Below, piece by piece: positions 29,428-37,620 of a stretch of DNA of 46,139 nucleotides. This DNA is from Bacteroidales bacterium Bact_14. GTDB lineage: Bacteria; Bacteroidota; Bacteroidia; Bacteroidales; UBA932. Positions within the stretch are counted from its first letter, which is position 1. Each line of letters opens with the position of its first letter. The stretch spans positions 1-46,139 of the forward strand of contig LUZF01000002.1 in NCBI GenBank assembly GCA_001602865.1. The letters are read 5' to 3'. The notes beneath the pieces were generated by a model. The model was not told the origin of the DNA. It ran no database searches and worked only from the letters and a program-made list of their open reading frames with translations. The position numbers and the translations under genes are program-made.

Positions 29428-30216
29428 TTACAGTCCCTTGCTTTTGCCTTCGTCCCAGATGGCGTCCATCTCTGCGAGGGTCAGGTCCGTGAGCTTGATG
29501 CCCTTCTTCAGCGTGTTCTCCTCGAGGTAGGTAAAGCGGCGGCGGAACTTCTCGCAGGCACGGTTCAGCGCGACCTCGGGGTCGATGCCGTAGAGCCGGG
29601 AGGCGTTGATGACCGCGAACATCAGGTCGCCGAATTCCTCCTCCATATGGGCGGGATCGCCCTCGCCCGCGGCTTCCTCCACTTCGCCGAGCTCCTCGTG
29701 GACCTTGTCCCAGACATCCTCCTTCTGCTCCCAGTCGAAGCCGCAGCCGCGGGCCTTCTCCTGCATGGAATGGGCCTTCAGGATGGCGGGCATCGCGACG
29801 GGGATGCCGGACATGATGGTCTTGTTGCCGTTCTTCTCCTTGGCCTTGACCAGCTCCCAGGTGTCGGCGATGTCCTTGGCGCTGAGCTTCCTGCGGTCGT
29901 CGCCGAAGACGTGGGGATGGCGGAATACCATCTTCTCGCAGACGCTGTTGATGCTGTCTGCGATGTCGAAATCTCCCTTTTCCTGGGCGATGCGGGCGTA
30001 GAAGACCATATGGTAGAGGAGGTCGCCGATCTCCTTGGAGGTCGCTTTCGCGTCGCCGCGGAGAATTGCGTCACTCAGTTCGTAGACCTCTTCCTCGGTC
30101 AGCGGGCGGATGGATTCCATCGTCTGGGCCGCATTCCAGGGGCACTCTTCCCGCAGCCGGTCCATGATGTCCAGCAGCCGCGCGAACTGTTCCAGCTTTT
30201 CGTCTTTTGTATGCAT
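29428..30216 (-). CDS. mazG: Nucleoside triphosphate pyrophosphohydrolase MazG
   Basis: 'LREECPWNAAQTMESIRPLTEEEVYELSDAI', 'KEIGDLLYHMVFYARIAQE', 'EEEFGDLMFAVINASRLYGIDPEVALNRACEKFRRRFTYLE'. Confidence 0.95.
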   Translation of the reverse strand: MHTKDEKLEQFARLLDIMDRLREECPWNAAQTMESIRPLTEEEVYELSDAILRGDAKATSKEIGDLLYHMVFYARIAQEKGDFDIADSINSVCEKMVFRHPHVFGDDRRKLSAKDIADTWELVKAKEKNGNKTIMSGIPVAMPAILKAHSMQEKARGCGFDWEQKEDVWDKVHEELGEVEEAAGEGDPAHMEEEFGDLMFAVINASRLYGIDPEVALNRACEKFRRRFTYLEENTLKKGIKLTDLTLAEMDAIWDEGKSKGL

Positions 30217-30229
30217 CAAATAATGTTTC

Positions 30230-30237
30230 TATCTTTG
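30230..30237 (+). promoter_or_regulatory. -7 box TATCTTTG for the acetyl-CoA hydrolase/transferase gene
   Basis: TAnnTTTG, 29 nt before the ATG. Confidence 0.6.
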
Positions 30238-30266
30238 TGTTCACAAAGTTAGCAATAATTACGCAG

Positions 30267-31568
30267 ATGAAAGACATCCGTTTCGTTTCCGCCGATGAGG
30301 CCGTCAGCCACATCCCCTCCCATTGCCATGTCCACCTGAGCAGCGTGGCCAGCGTTCCGCACATCCTGATCCAGGCGCTCTGCCGCCGCGCGGACGCGGG
30401 GGACGTGGAGGACCTGCATTTCCACCATTTCCACACCGAAGGCCCGGCGCCGTACTCGGAGCCGCGCTACGAGGGGAAATTCTTCGAGCAGGGCTTCTTC
30501 GTGGGACCGAACGTGCGGGCGAACGTGAACGCCGGTTACGCCGACTACCTCCCGGCCCACCTCGGCGAGAGCCAGAAGATGTACCGCGAGGGCGCGATCA
30601 AGCTCGGCGCGGCCCTGGTCCAGATCTCCCGGCCGAACAAGGACGGATACGTCTCGCTGGGCACCTCCGTGGACTGCTCCATCGCGGCCATCGAGAGCGC
30701 GGCCGTGCGCATCGGCGTCGTGAATCCCCACGTCCCCTTCGCCCACGGCGACCTCGTCTCCATCGACAGCTTCGACTACCTCGTCGAGGATGACACCCCG
30801 CTGGTGACCAAGGACTTCGCGGAGCCGACCCCGACCGAGGTGCTGATCGGCAAGAACTGCGCGGCGCTCGTCGACGACGGCGCGTGCATCCAGATGGGCA
30901 TCGGCGCCCTGCCGAACGCCCTCGCCGCCCAGCTCGTGAACCACAAGAACCTCGGCGTCCACACCGAAATGTTCGCCGACGGCATCCTGCGCCTCATCAA
31001 GAAAGGCGTCGTGACCGGCGCCTGCAAGAAGATCGACACCGGCAAGGTCGTCGCCTCCTTCCTCCTGGGCTCCCAGGAAGTCTACTCTTTCATCGACGAC
31101 AACCCCGACGTCCTGATGAAGGACATCAAATACACCAACGATCCCTGGATTATCTCCCGCAACCCGAAGATGATGGCCATCAACTCCGCCACCGAAGTGG
31201 ACATCACCGGCCAGATCAGCGCCGACTCCATCGGCACGCGCATCTTCTCCGGCACCGGCGGCCAGCTCGACTTCGTCAAGGGTGCGACCATGGCCGAAGG
31301 GGGCAAGTCCATCACCGCCTTCGCCTCCCGCACCAACAAGGGCAAGAACAAGATCGTCAGCTTCCTGAACCCCGGCGCCGGCGTCGTCACCCCCCGCGCA
31401 GACGCCCACTGGATCGTCACCGAGTACGGCGCCGTCGACCTCTATGGCAAATCCCTCCAGGAGCGCGCCAAACTCCTCATCTCCATCGCCCACCCCGACG
31501 ACCGCGAAATGCTGGATCGCGAAGCCTTCGAACGCTTCGGTCCGCACTATCATAATTTCAGCATCTGA
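30267..31568 (+). CDS. Acetyl-CoA hydrolase / 4-hydroxybutyrate-type CoA-transferase family
   Basis: 'GIGALPNALAAQLVNHKNLGVHTEMFADGILRLIKKGVVTG', 'GTGGQLDFVKGATMAEGGKSITAF', 'VVTPRADAHWIVTEYGAVDLYGKSLQERAKLLI'. Confidence 0.93.
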   Translation: MKDIRFVSADEAVSHIPSHCHVHLSSVASVPHILIQALCRRADAGDVEDLHFHHFHTEGPAPYSEPRYEGKFFEQGFFVGPNVRANVNAGYADYLPAHLGESQKMYREGAIKLGAALVQISRPNKDGYVSLGTSVDCSIAAIESAAVRIGVVNPHVPFAHGDLVSIDSFDYLVEDDTPLVTKDFAEPTPTEVLIGKNCAALVDDGACIQMGIGALPNALAAQLVNHKNLGVHTEMFADGILRLIKKGVVTGACKKIDTGKVVASFLLGSQEVYSFIDDNPDVLMKDIKYTNDPWIISRNPKMMAINSATEVDITGQISADSIGTRIFSGTGGQLDFVKGATMAEGGKSITAFASRTNKGKNKIVSFLNPGAGVVTPRADAHWIVTEYGAVDLYGKSLQERAKLLISIAHPDDREMLDREAFERFGPHYHNFSI

Positions 31569-31613
31569 CCACATCTAACCACATCTAACACATAACTACT
31601 AACCACAATTACT

Positions 31614-31766: not shown

Positions 31767-33623
31767 ATGAAGAGAACTATCCTTTTTGTCTTTATCGCCA
31801 TGCTGGCGGCCAGTGCCTGTGTAAAGGAACCTCTAGCCGTTGAAACAACCGAGGAATCATCCCAGGAGGCGCCTGTTGATGCTATTCTCACGTCATTTAC
31901 CGCCACGGCGGAAGGCGCGGTCACGAAAACGGACTTGTACGGAAACGATGCCGAAGGCTATGCCGTGCGATGGCGGGAATGGGATGCGATTCACGTTACG
32001 GATGCCGCCGGGAATACCGGTACATACAGGGCATTAGCAGGGGGAGAGATCACTACCTCGTTTACAATCAAAGGGTCCAGCAATGTCAATACTTCCCGTC
32101 CACCATTCATCGCGTATTACCCGGAAACCATCCGCGAGGCCGCTCGCATCTGGCCTTCTGAACAGGATTATATGGACGACGGAGTTGTACCGCTTCTCAA
32201 GACTGTCCCGATGCGCGGCCTGGCAGAGTCCATTGTCAGAGACGAAGAAAATGTATTCAACATTACGACAGATTTTACCTTCAAGAATCTTGGCGGCCTG
32301 ATACGCTTAAATTTGAAATCCACCACCCCCGGGACCACTGTTGGGAAGATTATCCTTTCTGCAGATGAAGGGATGAGCGGTCCGTTCAATATCGCCGCGG
32401 ATGGCCTTACGGCCGAAATAGAATCCGGCACAGGCGACGTGACGCTTTATGTTGTCAATGTATCACACGGATTTGCCGTTTCGCTCAGTTCGGAACCCAA
32501 GCCTTTCTATATTGCCGTTCCTGCGGGTACATACAACAATCTGAAGGTTACCGTCGTTCAGGACAATATGTCTGCCCAAACCAAGACCGCCAAGGTCCCT
32601 ATCGTCGTAGAGCGGAGCAAAATCACGGATATCACGCTTACTTTCAACGACTTCGCGCTTGAGACTACGAATCTCAGCGCCTCCGCGACAGCCAACTGCT
32701 ATGTGGTTGGCCGTGCCGGGTCGTACAAGTTCCGGGCCGACGTCGCGGGCAATGGAGCTGCGGATTTAAGTGGAATCAGCAAAACGATCAGCTCCGTCAA
32801 TTCCGCGGAACTGCTGTGGGCGACGATCGAGACGCAGTCGCCTCCAGGCAATACCCAGCTTATTCGGAATGTCCGTTATAGCGACGGCTTTGTTTTCTTT
32901 GATACCGGAGTGAAATATATAGAAGGGAATGCGCTGATTGCTGTCAAGGATGCCTCTTCCAATATTCTTTGGAGTTGGCATATCTGGTTCGAGAGTGATG
33001 ATCTGGAAGCGCTCAGACAGAGGTTTGGCTCCAACGTCGTGTTTATGGACAGAAATCTCGGCGCCATTGAGAATTATCACCGGACGGATTATTACTTCGA
33101 TTTCGGTATGTACTATGAATGGGGCCGCAAGGATCCGTTCCCGCATCAGGTTAATTCAAGCAGAACTCAGACCGTGGCCAGGAGGGGGAGTCGCACGACG
33201 ACCACTTTGGAAAGCCTGTCACTTGCCGGAACCATTGCCAACCCTACCGCAGTCTCCTCCGGTGGCATCAGTGGTGCCACATGGGATACCGATTCCAAGA
33301 ACATCTTCGACCCTTGCCCTCCGGGCTGGAAGGTTCCGAAACCGATTCAGTTTACAGCCCAGATTGCAGGCAAGGGCGTATGGCAGTCAGGCGTCGGTGC
33401 TACAATCACATACGGTGGTCACACAGCCTGGTACCCTGCCGCCGGTGCATTTGCCCATGGATCGACTAATTATTATCACCAAGGGGAAGGGGCCTACCTG
33501 TATACGACTACCTCTGCGTATTCCAGATCCTTCGACCTCTCTTCATCCTTATATGGATCGATGCAGGATAAGGATTCGTATTGGGCGTGTAGCGTCCGTT
33601 GCGTAAAGGAATTCGAGCCGTAA
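31767..33623 (+). CDS. Fimbrillin-like lipoprotein with a FISUMP-like C-terminal domain
   Basis: Lipobox 'MLAASAC'; 'SFTATAEGAVTKTDLYG...WREWDAIHV' fimbrillin-like N-terminus; 'VFMDRNLGAIENY...YYEWGRKDPFPHQ...IFDPCPPGWKVP' FISUMP-like. Confidence 0.82.
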   Translation: MKRTILFVFIAMLAASACVKEPLAVETTEESSQEAPVDAILTSFTATAEGAVTKTDLYGNDAEGYAVRWREWDAIHVTDAAGNTGTYRALAGGEITTSFTIKGSSNVNTSRPPFIAYYPETIREAARIWPSEQDYMDDGVVPLLKTVPMRGLAESIVRDEENVFNITTDFTFKNLGGLIRLNLKSTTPGTTVGKIILSADEGMSGPFNIAADGLTAEIESGTGDVTLYVVNVSHGFAVSLSSEPKPFYIAVPAGTYNNLKVTVVQDNMSAQTKTAKVPIVVERSKITDITLTFNDFALETTNLSASATANCYVVGRAGSYKFRADVAGNGAADLSGISKTISSVNSAELLWATIETQSPPGNTQLIRNVRYSDGFVFFDTGVKYIEGNALIAVKDASSNILWSWHIWFESDDLEALRQRFGSNVVFMDRNLGAIENYHRTDYYFDFGMYYEWGRKDPFPHQVNSSRTQTVARRGSRTTTTLESLSLAGTIANPTAVSSGGISGATWDTDSKNIFDPCPPGWKVPKPIQFTAQIAGKGVWQSGVGATITYGGHTAWYPAAGAFAHGSTNYYHQGEGAYLYTTTSAYSRSFDLSSSLYGSMQDKDSYWACSVRCVKEFEP

Positions 33624-33913: not shown

Positions 33914-36900
33914 CTATTTAAAATGGTTGTAAATCACGACCGGGCGGGTGCGGCGGATGGACATGGAGGGGAACCACATGTCGTCGGCGGTGATGCCACA
34001 TTTCTCGATGGCTTCGACGCAGTACTCGAGGCGGCCGAAGTTTGAGTCGACATTGTTGGTGCCGAAGGTAAACTTGATGCCGCGGGACTTTGCCTTGCGG
34101 ATGATATCCAGGCTTGGAATCTTGTAGCGCGGATTGATCTCGAGGGCGATCTGGTACTTCTGGAGGACGTCCAGGACGCGGTCGACGCGGGCCGGGGTCC
34201 AGTACTTGTCATAATCGGCCTGCATGTCTTCCGGGATGTATGTCGGATTCGCGAAAATATCCGCGGGCTCGTTGGTCAGGATGAGGACAGACTGGTTCAC
34301 GATCTGCTCCATATAACCTTCCTTGTCGATGTCGTCGTAATGGACTTCCTCCGCACGGTAGATGCGGCTGTTGCGGCCTTTGTGGTCGATGATCGTCATC
34401 GCATCCGTGAAGAGGTAATCGAACGCGCCGAGGGCTTCCTGGGAGAAGGTAGCGGTCCACTTGCGACCCTCGCCCTGCACGCCGCGGAGGAACGGCATAT
34501 CCTTCACCTCATCCAGGTAGGCATACACTTCCTCGTCATTGGCGAGCATGCGACCCACGCCGCCTTCCCCGGCATTCGGGGCCACGCCGTAGTTGATGCC
34601 ATAATTCATCGACATCGCGTGGGCCATCTCCTTCGTCAGGTCACCCTTGAGGTGGACGTGATAGTCGATCACCGGGAAATCCTGCTGCTGGAGGCGGATG
34701 ATGGCATCATTCTGCTCATCCACCGGCGGCATTTTGGCATCGGGGTTGGTCGCATCCGCGGGAAGCGCCTTCACGTGGAGGTCCTTGAAATGGACGATTC
34801 CCTCCGCGCCGGCGATGCGGATGCCGCCCTTGCCGAGCAGCTGGCGGTTGTGCTTCGCAGTGCGGTACGGGATCGCCGGCTCGGTATAGCAGACGACCTC
34901 CGTCCCGTTCACTTTCACGGAAATGTTCTTGCCGCGGACGGCGAGTTCCAGGTCGAACCATTCGCCGTCTTCGGCGAGCGAACGGTAGAGGTTGCGCACG
35001 GAGGCGAGGCTGCCGGTCTTGCGCGTCCCGTCTATCGGGCCGTTGTGGAGCAGGACCTCGTATCCGCCGCCCTTACCGTCGGTGTGAAAAAAAACCGAAG
35101 CGCTGGCCCCCTTCTCCGCAAGGACTTTGGTGTCCAGCACGAAATTGGTGTATTCGCCGCCCAGCTCGCGGGCCTTGTTCTCGGCCACGGCGAACTCGGA
35201 CATACAGTCGATTACCTTCTGATTCGCGGCAGCGACGCGCTCCACATCCATCTTGACGACTTCGCGGTCATAGGTCATCAGGCCGTTGACCTCGATTTCG
35301 ACGTCGGTGGTCTGGGTATAGACCGCCGCGGAGCAGCCCTCGCGCACCAGGTCTTCCAGCATCGCGGCGTACTCCACATAGGCGTCGGTCACTTCGGAGC
35401 CGCTCTTGTACTGGACGTAGCCCCAGTTCTTGTCCTTCTGCCAGAGATGGCCTTCCACCGGGAAGCCGATACCGCCGTACTCGCCGAGCACGTTGACCAT
35501 GTCAGGATCGGTGATGCGGAGGGCCGGGTGGGGGTAATTGTGGCTGTCGAGGATGTCGCCGACGCCCTCGAACCAGTTGCCGCCGGAGGCCATGTTGACG
35601 AGGCGCGTGCGGTCCTGGGCATAAGTGAAATCGACCACTTCCGGAGTATCGAACTGCGACCAGGCCTCGTTGAACGGGACCCAGACGACGATGCTCTGGA
35701 ACTTCTTCAGCTGGGCCATGATCTCGCTCCATTCCTTATAATAATTGGCTTTCGCCTCGTCGGTGACCTTGCTGTCATCCTCGCGCGTCGCATACGCACG
35801 CGTCTTCCAGTGGCTGCTGCGGTTGTCGGTGAAGGACGGCATGTCCTGCCAGACGAGCACGCCGAGCTGGTCGCAGGCGTAGAACCAGGTGAAGGGCTCG
35901 ACCTTGATGTGCTTGCGGATCATATTGAAGCCGTGGGCCTTGGTCTGCTCGATGTCGTAACGCATCGCTTCGTCAGTCGGCGGCGTATAGAGGCCGTCCG
36001 GCCACCAGCCCTGGTCCAGCGGGCCATATTGGAAGAGGAACTCGTTGTTCAGCGCCAGGCGCAGATGGCCCTCGGCGTCGCGCTCCTTGGAGATCTTGCG
36101 CATCGCGGTGTAGGCGTCCACCTTGTCCACCACCTTGCCGTTACGGACGATGCTGAGGCGCAGGCCGTAGAGGTACGGGGAATCCGGGCTCCAAAGCTGC
36201 ATATCCGGCACGCTGAGCTTGACCTCGACGTTCTTGCTGCCGGCCGCTTCCCCGCTCGCCAGGACCTTGCGGGAAGGCTTCTCCGTCGAGTAGCCGACGG
36301 CGCCGTCGAGCAGCTCGACGCGGACCTGGTCGCCGCCCCGGAGGGCGTCGGTCGCAACGCTGACGCTCAGCGAGGCGTTGTCGATGTCGGAGACGACATC
36401 GTAGTCCACGATGCGGCTCTCGGCCACCGGCTCGAGCCAGACGCTCTTCCAGATGCCGGTCACCGCGGTGTACCAGATGCCGCTCGGGTGGAGTACCTGC
36501 TTGCCGTGGGGCTGGAATTCGGTGATGTCGGTCGCATCGGAAACCTTGAGGACGAGCTTCTGCCCGCCATTCTCCAGGTACGGCGTGATGTCATATTCAA
36601 ACGCGGTATAGGCGCCGGTATGGGTCTCCAGCGGAATGCCGTTGATGGAGGCTTCGGCCTTCCAGTCGACGCCGTCGAAATGGAGCAGCACCCGCTTGCC
36701 CTTCCAGGCGCGCGGAATCTCGAAGGAGGTGCTGTACCAGAGTGCGTCGTCCGGAGTCACCGTGCGGCCGACGCCCGACAGGGCGGACTCCACGGAGAAG
36801 GGGACGAGGATCTGGCCGTCCGCTTCCGGCATCGCGGTCGCGGCGATCGGGGTGATGGCATAGTCCCAGAGGCCGTTCAGCGACTTCCAGTCGGAACGGA

Positions 36901-37078
36901 CCATCTGCGGGCGCGGGTACTCCGGGTGGACATTCGCCGGGGAGACTTCCGCCGCCCAGCGGGTCTTGATGTTGTCTCCGGCCGGGGCCCAGCCGGTCAC
37001 GGGCTCCTGCTTGCAGGAAACCAGGCCCAGCGCAAGCGCCGCGAGGATCAGAAGAATGCTGCGTGTTTTCATATGCAT
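33914..37078 (-). CDS. Multidomain lipoprotein: GH2 glycosidase + DUF1080-like (3-keto-disaccharide hydrolase) + PHP-like metal-dependent hydrolase
   Basis: Lipobox 'ALGLVSC'; GH2 'WVPFNEAWSQ' and 'VLGEYGGIG'; DUF1080-like 'FVLDTKVLAEKGASASVFFHTDGKGGGYEVLLHNGP...GEWFDLELAVRGKNISVKVNGTEVV...GGIRIAGAEGIVHFKDLHVKAL'; C-terminus 'VIDYHVHLKGDLTKE...ALEINPRYKIPSLDIIRKAKSRGIKFTFGTNN'. Confidence 0.85.
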   Translation of the reverse strand: MHMKTRSILLILAALALGLVSCKQEPVTGWAPAGDNIKTRWAAEVSPANVHPEYPRPQMVRSDWKSLNGLWDYAITPIAATAMPEADGQILVPFSVESALSGVGRTVTPDDALWYSTSFEIPRAWKGKRVLLHFDGVDWKAEASINGIPLETHTGAYTAFEYDITPYLENGGQKLVLKVSDATDITEFQPHGKQVLHPSGIWYTAVTGIWKSVWLEPVAESRIVDYDVVSDIDNASLSVSVATDALRGGDQVRVELLDGAVGYSTEKPSRKVLASGEAAGSKNVEVKLSVPDMQLWSPDSPYLYGLRLSIVRNGKVVDKVDAYTAMRKISKERDAEGHLRLALNNEFLFQYGPLDQGWWPDGLYTPPTDEAMRYDIEQTKAHGFNMIRKHIKVEPFTWFYACDQLGVLVWQDMPSFTDNRSSHWKTRAYATREDDSKVTDEAKANYYKEWSEIMAQLKKFQSIVVWVPFNEAWSQFDTPEVVDFTYAQDRTRLVNMASGGNWFEGVGDILDSHNYPHPALRITDPDMVNVLGEYGGIGFPVEGHLWQKDKNWGYVQYKSGSEVTDAYVEYAAMLEDLVREGCSAAVYTQTTDVEIEVNGLMTYDREVVKMDVERVAAANQKVIDCMSEFAVAENKARELGGEYTNFVLDTKVLAEKGASASVFFHTDGKGGGYEVLLHNGPIDGTRKTGSLASVRNLYRSLAEDGEWFDLELAVRGKNISVKVNGTEVVCYTEPAIPYRTAKHNRQLLGKGGIRIAGAEGIVHFKDLHVKALPADATNPDAKMPPVDEQNDAIIRLQQQDFPVIDYHVHLKGDLTKEMAHAMSMNYGINYGVAPNAGEGGVGRMLANDEEVYAYLDEVKDMPFLRGVQGEGRKWTATFSQEALGAFDYLFTDAMTIIDHKGRNSRIYRAEEVHYDDIDKEGYMEQIVNQSVLILTNEPADIFANPTYIPEDMQADYDKYWTPARVDRVLDVLQKYQIALEINPRYKIPSLDIIRKAKSRGIKFTFGTNNVDSNFGRLEYCVEAIEKCGITADDMWFPSMSIRRTRPVVIYNHFK

Positions 37079-37083
37079 CTTGT

Positions 37084-37620
37084 TTAATGTTTTTCAAAGA
37101 AAGAGAAATGGACGCGGCCGTACACCTTTTCCTTGACGAAGTACGGATGGTCCGTGTAGGAATGTTCATCCCCGTGTTCCAGGACGAGGTAGCGCTCCGG
37201 GTAGAGGATGTCCGCTTCGAACACCCGGTCCGGGAAGGACTCCAGCCCCTCCGTCGCATAGGGCGGATCGGCGAACACCAGGTCGAACTTCTGCGCGCAG
37301 CGCGGCAGGAAGTCGAATACGTTGTCCCGGACGACCGTGACGGCGTCCAGGCCGAGACGGGCGGCCTCCGCCTTGATGAAGGCCGCATTCTCGCGCGCCA
37401 TCTCGACGCTCAGGACCCGGGCGGCTCCCCGGGAAGCGAACTCGAAGGCGACGGCGCCGGTCCCGCCGAAGAGGTCCAGCACCTTGAGGTCCTCGAATTC
37501 GTATTCGTTGTTCAGGACATTGAACAGGCCTTCGCGGGCAAAGTCGGTCGTCGGACGCGCCTTGTACCCGGCCGGCGGCAGGATGCTCCGCCCCTTCAGC
37601 CTGCCCCCGATAATCCTCAT
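37084..37620 (-). CDS. rsmD: 16S rRNA (guanine966-N2)-methyltransferase
   Basis: 'MRIIGGRLKGRSI...RPTTDFAREGLFNVL', 'VLDLFGGTGAVAFEFASRGA', 'LVFADPPY'. Confidence 0.95.
   Translation of the reverse strand: MRIIGGRLKGRSILPPAGYKARPTTDFAREGLFNVLNNEYEFEDLKVLDLFGGTGAVAFEFASRGAARVLSVEMARENAAFIKAEAARLGLDAVTVVRDNVFDFLPRCAQKFDLVFADPPYATEGLESFPDRVFEADILYPERYLVLEHGDEHSYTDHPYFVKEKVYGRVHFSFFEKH

Follow-up and report, generated by a model that had tools for sequence, protein, structure and literature searches.

Introduction

The locus studied here raises the question of whether a single lipoprotein of a rumen-type gut bacterium truly carries a glycosidase, a beta-sandwich and a barrel in one chain, how such a chain arose, and what its last domain might do. 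The window (the whole stretch of DNA that was analysed, 46,139 nucleotides of contig LUZF01000002.1 from Bacteroidales bacterium Bact_14) had been read in a first-pass annotation as encoding a lipoprotein that joins a GH2 glycosidase, a DUF1080-like segment and a PHP-like hydrolase, and that could free an unusual or oxidised (3-keto) glycoside at the cell surface and then process it. In this study, we have used profile searches, structure models and a survey of relatives to examine the frame, the three domains and the origin of their union.

Results

One frame, three domains

The gene occupies exactly the span first assigned to it, on the minus strand, which had been left unstated (Table 1). 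It is a single frame of 1054 amino acids with an ATG start and no internal stops, and its description as one lipoprotein with three domains holds: a GH2 part, a DUF1080 part and a PHP-type barrel. As read from the sequence, the lipoprotein signal is one for membrane anchoring and leaves the facing side unspecified. AlphaFold2 models built from homologue alignments reached a mean pLDDT of 87.5 (pTM 0.73) for the full-length protein and of 92 (pTM 0.91) for the DUF1080-PHP half. A 915-aa antisense frame lies opposite the fused gene (34340-37087, plus strand); it bears no sign of being a gene and is probably a by-product of high GC.

Table 1. Features of the fused gene and its upstream neighbour (window positions)
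Feature	Residues	Position	Strand	Basis
Whole fused gene, GH2 + DUF1080-like + PHP-like lipoprotein		33914..37078	-	Open frame; same fusion in L032/G392
Signal peptide and lipobox (...LGLVSC, Cys22)	1-22	37013..37078	-	Direct sequence reading
GH2 glycosidase (jelly-roll, Ig-like, TIM barrel)	28-623	35210..36997	-	phmmer, Foldseek
Predicted acid/base Glu471 (FNEAW)	471	35666..35668	-	NE invariant in 52/52 rows; aligned with NE of 9J6N
Predicted nucleophile Glu533 (VLGEYGG)	533	35480..35482	-	Invariant in 52/52 rows; aligned with VLGE of 9J6N
Fusion junction; last GH2 helix (612-625) straight into beta-sandwich	612-640	35159..35245	-	L033 alignment, model
DUF1080/PF06439-like beta-sandwich	629-771	34766..35194	-	Pfam 1e-13, Foldseek, hhalign 98.8%
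PHP-like (beta/alpha)7 barrel	796-1040	33959..34693	-	NF006251, Foldseek, hhalign, model
HVHLK: HxH kept; Lys811 aligned with SDG Asp	807-811	34646..34660	-	H807, H809, K811 in 58/58
GTNN in place of GSDAH	1006-1009	34052..34063	-	N1008, N1009 in 59/59
RsmD-like methyltransferase, upstream, 5 bp from fused gene		37084..37620	-	Pfam Cons_hypoth95; same upstream in L032, L033

The GH2 part

Jelly roll, Ig-like domain and TIM barrel follow one another in the order of the GH2 family, and Pfam places the N-terminal, middle and barrel domains (PF02837, PF00703 and PF02836, all above cut-off) at residues 111-500. Against the PDB, residues ~28-625 match 7SF2 (phmmer E 2e-206), 9J6N (E 3e-134) and, more distantly, 7XYR, with target-normalised Foldseek TM-scores of 0.96 to 7SF2 and 0.92 to 9J6N. 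Both catalytic Glu regions, first reported as retained, are indeed intact: the first residues of WVPFNEAW and VLGEYGG are 466 and 530, and the Asn-Glu pair of the predicted acid/base (N470-E471) and the predicted nucleophile E533, invariant throughout the GH2 rows, align in 7SF2 as well as in 9J6N. The alignment runs end to end, with both Glu kept, at 52% identity to 7SF2, a Bacteroides cellulosilyticus enzyme, and at 40% identity to ORF1110, the beta-D-galactofuranosidase of Streptomyces JHA19 (9J6M/9J6N); those proteins stand alone, whereas the window protein runs 430 residues further and has two extra domains.

A 2025 division of GH2 assigns 9J6M to GH2_18 and 7XYR to GH2_19, the two furanose-active subfamilies, in group III (PMC12243196). 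The GH2 part scores 453 bits against 9J6N of GH2_18 and 228 bits against 7XYR of GH2_19, and judged by these scores its nearest subfamily would be GH2_18. That it is an active enzyme seems to us very probable; a preference for furanoses is an even call.

A truncated DUF1080-like sandwich

The middle segment had been placed near the family that includes the 3-keto-disaccharide hydrolases. Homology and fold bear this out, and the segment proves to be a truncated, divergent member. PF06439 (3keto-disac_hyd) matches residues 641-770 at 52 bits against a cut-off of 26.8, hhalign gives homology to DUF1080 the probability listed in Table 1, and Foldseek returns 3U1X, 3OSD (BT2157), 8V31 and 9FBE. The beta-sandwich fold is thus common to the DUF1080/PF06439 3-keto-disaccharide hydrolases and 3-keto-glycoside eliminase/hydratases (BT2157 = 3OSD, 8TDA, 8V31, 9FBE), of which BT2157 and others are treated in PMC9007349. 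Unlike these enzymes, the window sandwich is without the N-terminal quarter: the match begins at position 49 of the 187 in the profile, the first ~48 being gone, and the FDGxxLxGW motif, present in distant relatives, is absent from it. Its PF06439 score is 52-55 bits, while the remaining DUF1080 matches of this genome that pass the cut-off reach 124-165 bits.

The likeness extends in Pfam and Foldseek to LamG and CBM66, and Glu674 of the GYE motif is unconserved in distant members. Because the N-terminal part of PF06439 is missing and Glu674 is not conserved, the sandwich may only bind. Among the papers searched, none dealt with DUF1080 catalytic residues or with DUF1080 combined with PHP. When the DUF1080-PHP half was searched against the PDB by phmmer, the only results were designed repeat proteins and weak similarities that are probably due to chance or of LamG type.

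A PHP-like barrel that has lost most metal ligands

The Pfam PHP profile (PF02811) gave no match on the window protein at E up to 1, and for this reason fold and profile-profile tests were applied to the barrel. NCBIfam NF006251/PRK08392 matches residues 957-1037 (E 1.6e-10, a score far under its curated cut-off), and Foldseek matches the PHP domain of PolX (Thermus polymerase). A comparison with L094 as the only PHP protein told little, at a probability of 0.4%; eight canonical PHP proteins from Bacteroidales were then used, and against these the barrel family aligns by hhalign over the whole domain with a probability of 95-98%. The model has seven strands (804-808, 829-832, 864-869, 888-892, 941-943, 978-982 and 1003-1005). 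The C-terminal domain is accordingly PHP-like, as was proposed, in the sense of remote homology to a seven-stranded PHP barrel. None of the searched libraries has a name for this conserved, metal-depleted PHP-like family.

The barrel shares its seven strands, its HxH and its motif order with the PHP domains of YcdX/HisK-like phosphatases and PolX, and differs from them in the ligands. The motif DYHVHLKG lies at residues 805-812 and GTNNV at residues 1006-1010; the SDG Asp is replaced by K811, the DH His by N835 and GSDAH by GTNNV. Conservation was counted over 58-59 homologues, mostly DUF1080-PHP lipoproteins of Bacteroidales. The HxH of motif I is present in every row, and H807 and H809 are the only invariant His in the barrel; the rest of the trinuclear ligand set, including the DxH of GSDAH, is missing in these homologues, and most other metal-ligand positions are invariant Lys or Asn family-wide. 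The swapped positions themselves (K811, N835, GTNN) are invariant or nearly so, while position 1010 varies. Equivalents of the Glu ligand (Q868/E870), the fourth-strand His (M894/D892) and the fifth-strand His (N944) were read manually and depend on gap placement. The altered metal binding that had been suspected from GTNNV is therefore no local oddity and holds across the family.

Since only the HxH His remain and the other ligand positions are mostly invariant Lys or Asn, a trinuclear PHP site in this barrel is very unlikely. In the model, the invariant residues sit at the carboxy-terminal ends of the seven strands or just beyond them, the place of the active site in such a barrel, and we judged the location of the site by these strand-end positions. 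A sister subfamily (L220, 32% identity) still has GSD and HxH, which fits a stepwise loss of the PHP site. With the ligand loss conserved across many relatives, the barrel probably represents an enzyme or binding domain not described before.

Origin of the fusion

A scan of ~85,000 genomes gave 154 relatives, of which 80 were kept. The full fusion occurs beyond the window in one of these only, an independent assembly from goat omasum representing a second species (L032/G392), where the same frame is 92% identical and the differences are mostly silent. In a third species (L033/G487, UBA1736), a GH2 gene and a DUF1080-PHP gene, each with its own lipoprotein signal, overlap by one base at TAATG; every other relative that was kept either has just one of the halves or has the two at distant places. 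The genus was sampled with 400 genomes: the DUF1080-PHP part is present in 44 of them, and within a 1059-aa fusion frame in the window genome and G392 alone.

The window genome assembly is fragmented and 66% complete, as would suit an assembly chimera or a frameshift joining two genes, the artefact that had to be guarded against from the start. The independent genome carries the identical in-frame architecture; we reject the artefact, whose chance we put close to nil, and the fusion stands. In the trees of both domains L033 is sister to the window and L032 (support 99/97 and 100/99), so the genes were neighbours before they fused. Relative to L033, ~70 nt are gone, comprising the GH2 end, the stop and the second signal peptide, and Cys625 (35204-35206) falls at the lipobox-Cys column of the unfused second gene, where 53 of 55 homologues have Cys. 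Between the window and L032, dN/dS is 0.11 overall (GH2 0.12, sandwich 0.16, PHP 0.06), which indicates that the fused gene is maintained. The three-domain chain is a new domain architecture from recent fusion, and we hold it virtually certain that this was a real, lineage-specific and recent fusion of two neighbouring genes.

Genomic context and distribution

The surroundings of the locus are housekeeping: rsmD lies directly upstream, with DHH, FKBP, MatE, MazG, ThiF and RF1 nearby, and around the locus there is no sugar-utilisation cluster, dehydrogenase or 3-keto gene. Most of the stand-alone DUF1080-PHP genes that were examined are likewise orphans in unrelated housekeeping settings. DUF1080-PHP proteins without GH2 are common in Bacteroidales, and the PHP-like domain is present in 34 of 295 genomes of the order; as a phylum-wide sample yielded a clear relative in only one genome from beyond the order, the family is mainly one of Bacteroidales. 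The same PHP-like barrel is also fused to a peptidase M28 (L016:226-2199, 658 aa).

Two further observations concern the window. A 618-aa lipoprotein without Pfam match (31767-33623, plus strand), for which no counterpart was found in the L032 and L033 loci, adjoins a local rearrangement in which RF1, MazG and ThiF have changed place with respect to the fused gene. Two long frames overlap at 30207-31568 (plus) and 30249-31574 (minus); the plus-strand frame (453 aa, acetyl-CoA hydrolase/transferase-like) is taken as the gene because its conservation in L032 is 96%, whereas the minus frame reaches 81%.

Links of relatives to sugar chemistry

Four relatives (L132, L133, L137 and L138) are longer sandwich-PHP lipoproteins of ~640 aa. 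The one that was scanned, L132 (6624-8543), owes its extra C-terminal length to a full PF06439 domain (4.9e-55), and the genes around it encode a Gfo/Idh/MocA oxidoreductase, a BD-FAE esterase and a melibiase-type hydrolase. A BD-FAE-type esterase, a LOG-like protein and a Gfo/Idh/MocA-like gene recur as a cluster around the four. Elsewhere, relatives stand beside DUF1080 genes (L216, L218), an aldo-keto reductase (L217) or an AP_endonuc_2 isomerase (L220). The window genome itself (G000) has Gfo/Idh/MocA genes near full DUF1080 genes on contigs C30 and C38, sets that are probable 3-keto-glycoside pathways.

The same GH2 type is fused in several Bacteroidales to an aldose 1-epimerase, placed C- or N-terminally (L059:7392-10337, L061, L066, L072:6876-9803), and once in a triple peptidase M19-GH2-epimerase fusion of 1406 aa (L075:3316-7533). 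The lipoprotein fusions of L059, L072 and L075 resemble the window protein in joining this GH2 type to a sugar-processing domain, the partner being a mutarotase there and DUF1080-PHP here. GH2 with a product-processing domain is on this ground a repeated theme.

Discussion

Our best overall explanation, to which we give a probability of about 0.5, is a lineage-specific fusion in which the GH2 part cuts a terminal sugar and the barrel acts on the product. The ancestor would have had adjacent, overlapping lipoprotein genes, one for a GH2 exo-glycosidase of the group III furanosidase branch and one for a DUF1080-PHP protein; on the branch to the two sister species a deletion of ~70 nt would have taken the end of the first gene together with its stop codon, as well as the signal peptide of the second, leaving a single membrane-anchored protein. 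In this protein, the GH2 part would release a terminal beta-galactofuranose, alpha-L-arabinofuranose or similar beta-glycoside by the two-Glu retaining mechanism, the beta-sandwich would hold the glycan or present the product, and the barrel would act on the released or oxidised sugar. The putative barrel site would comprise the HxH, Lys811, Asn835, Glu870, Asp892, Asn944, Glu980 and Asn1008/1009, and would hold no more than one metal ion where classical PHP enzymes have three. The enzyme activity of each part, the furanose preference and any coupling between the parts are what we infer rather than observe. The sugar-linked relatives and neighbours, together with the repeated fusion of GH2 to a processing domain, lead us to favour a sugar-processing role of the barrel, with modest confidence and as a tentative assignment.

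The barrel could also be a non-catalytic ligand-binding domain, and drift could keep the fusion in place with no functional link between its parts. An ordinary GH2 enzyme to which fusion merely tethers two non-catalytic accessory binding domains would account for the truncated sandwich, with its LamG/CBM66 likeness, and for the absence of most PHP metal ligands; metal-ligand loss is a known precedent in some DnaE PHP domains. The polar residues at the strand ends, however, are invariant in 58-59 diverse homologues, to a degree far beyond the needs of a passive scaffold; of the three parts, the PHP one shows the lowest dN/dS, and PHP-only secreted relatives occur (L017, L024). We regard the tethered-accessory arrangement as possible rather than probable.

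The sequence of three steps on a 3-keto (C3-oxidised) glycoside, with DUF1080 as the eliminase/hydratase, draws on the activity of the PDB relatives of the sandwich, on the L132 barrel fused to an additional full PF06439 beside a Gfo/Idh/MocA gene, and on the Gfo/Idh/MocA and DUF1080 clusters of the window genome. Yet the window sandwich is without the quarter of PF06439 that includes FDGxxLxGW, the locus has no dehydrogenase or 3-keto gene near it, and a plain GH2 enzyme needs no oxidised substrate; we consider this sequence of steps distinctly improbable. By analogy with the neighbours and fusions of relatives (DUF1080, Gfo/Idh/MocA, AP_endonuc_2), a 3-keto-sugar role of the window protein in some form is plausible. 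That the DUF1080-PHP lipoproteins are an undescribed class, in which the barrel has been rebuilt around HxH, Lys and Asn into a one-metal or metal-free (keto-)sugar site that processes the product released by GH2, strikes us as rather unlikely when taken as a whole.

Returning to the explanation that we prefer, a fusion of a sugar-cutting GH2 part with a barrel acting on its product, the point of interest in the protein is the unnamed PHP-like family. As a Rosetta-stone clue, the fusion connects a common, unnamed lipoprotein family of Bacteroidales with a sugar-releasing enzyme, and this tie to GH2 gives the DUF1080-PHP family a testable role. If true, a PHP-fold family with systematic replacement of its metal ligands and an invariant site would offer a useful example of how an active site is remodelled.
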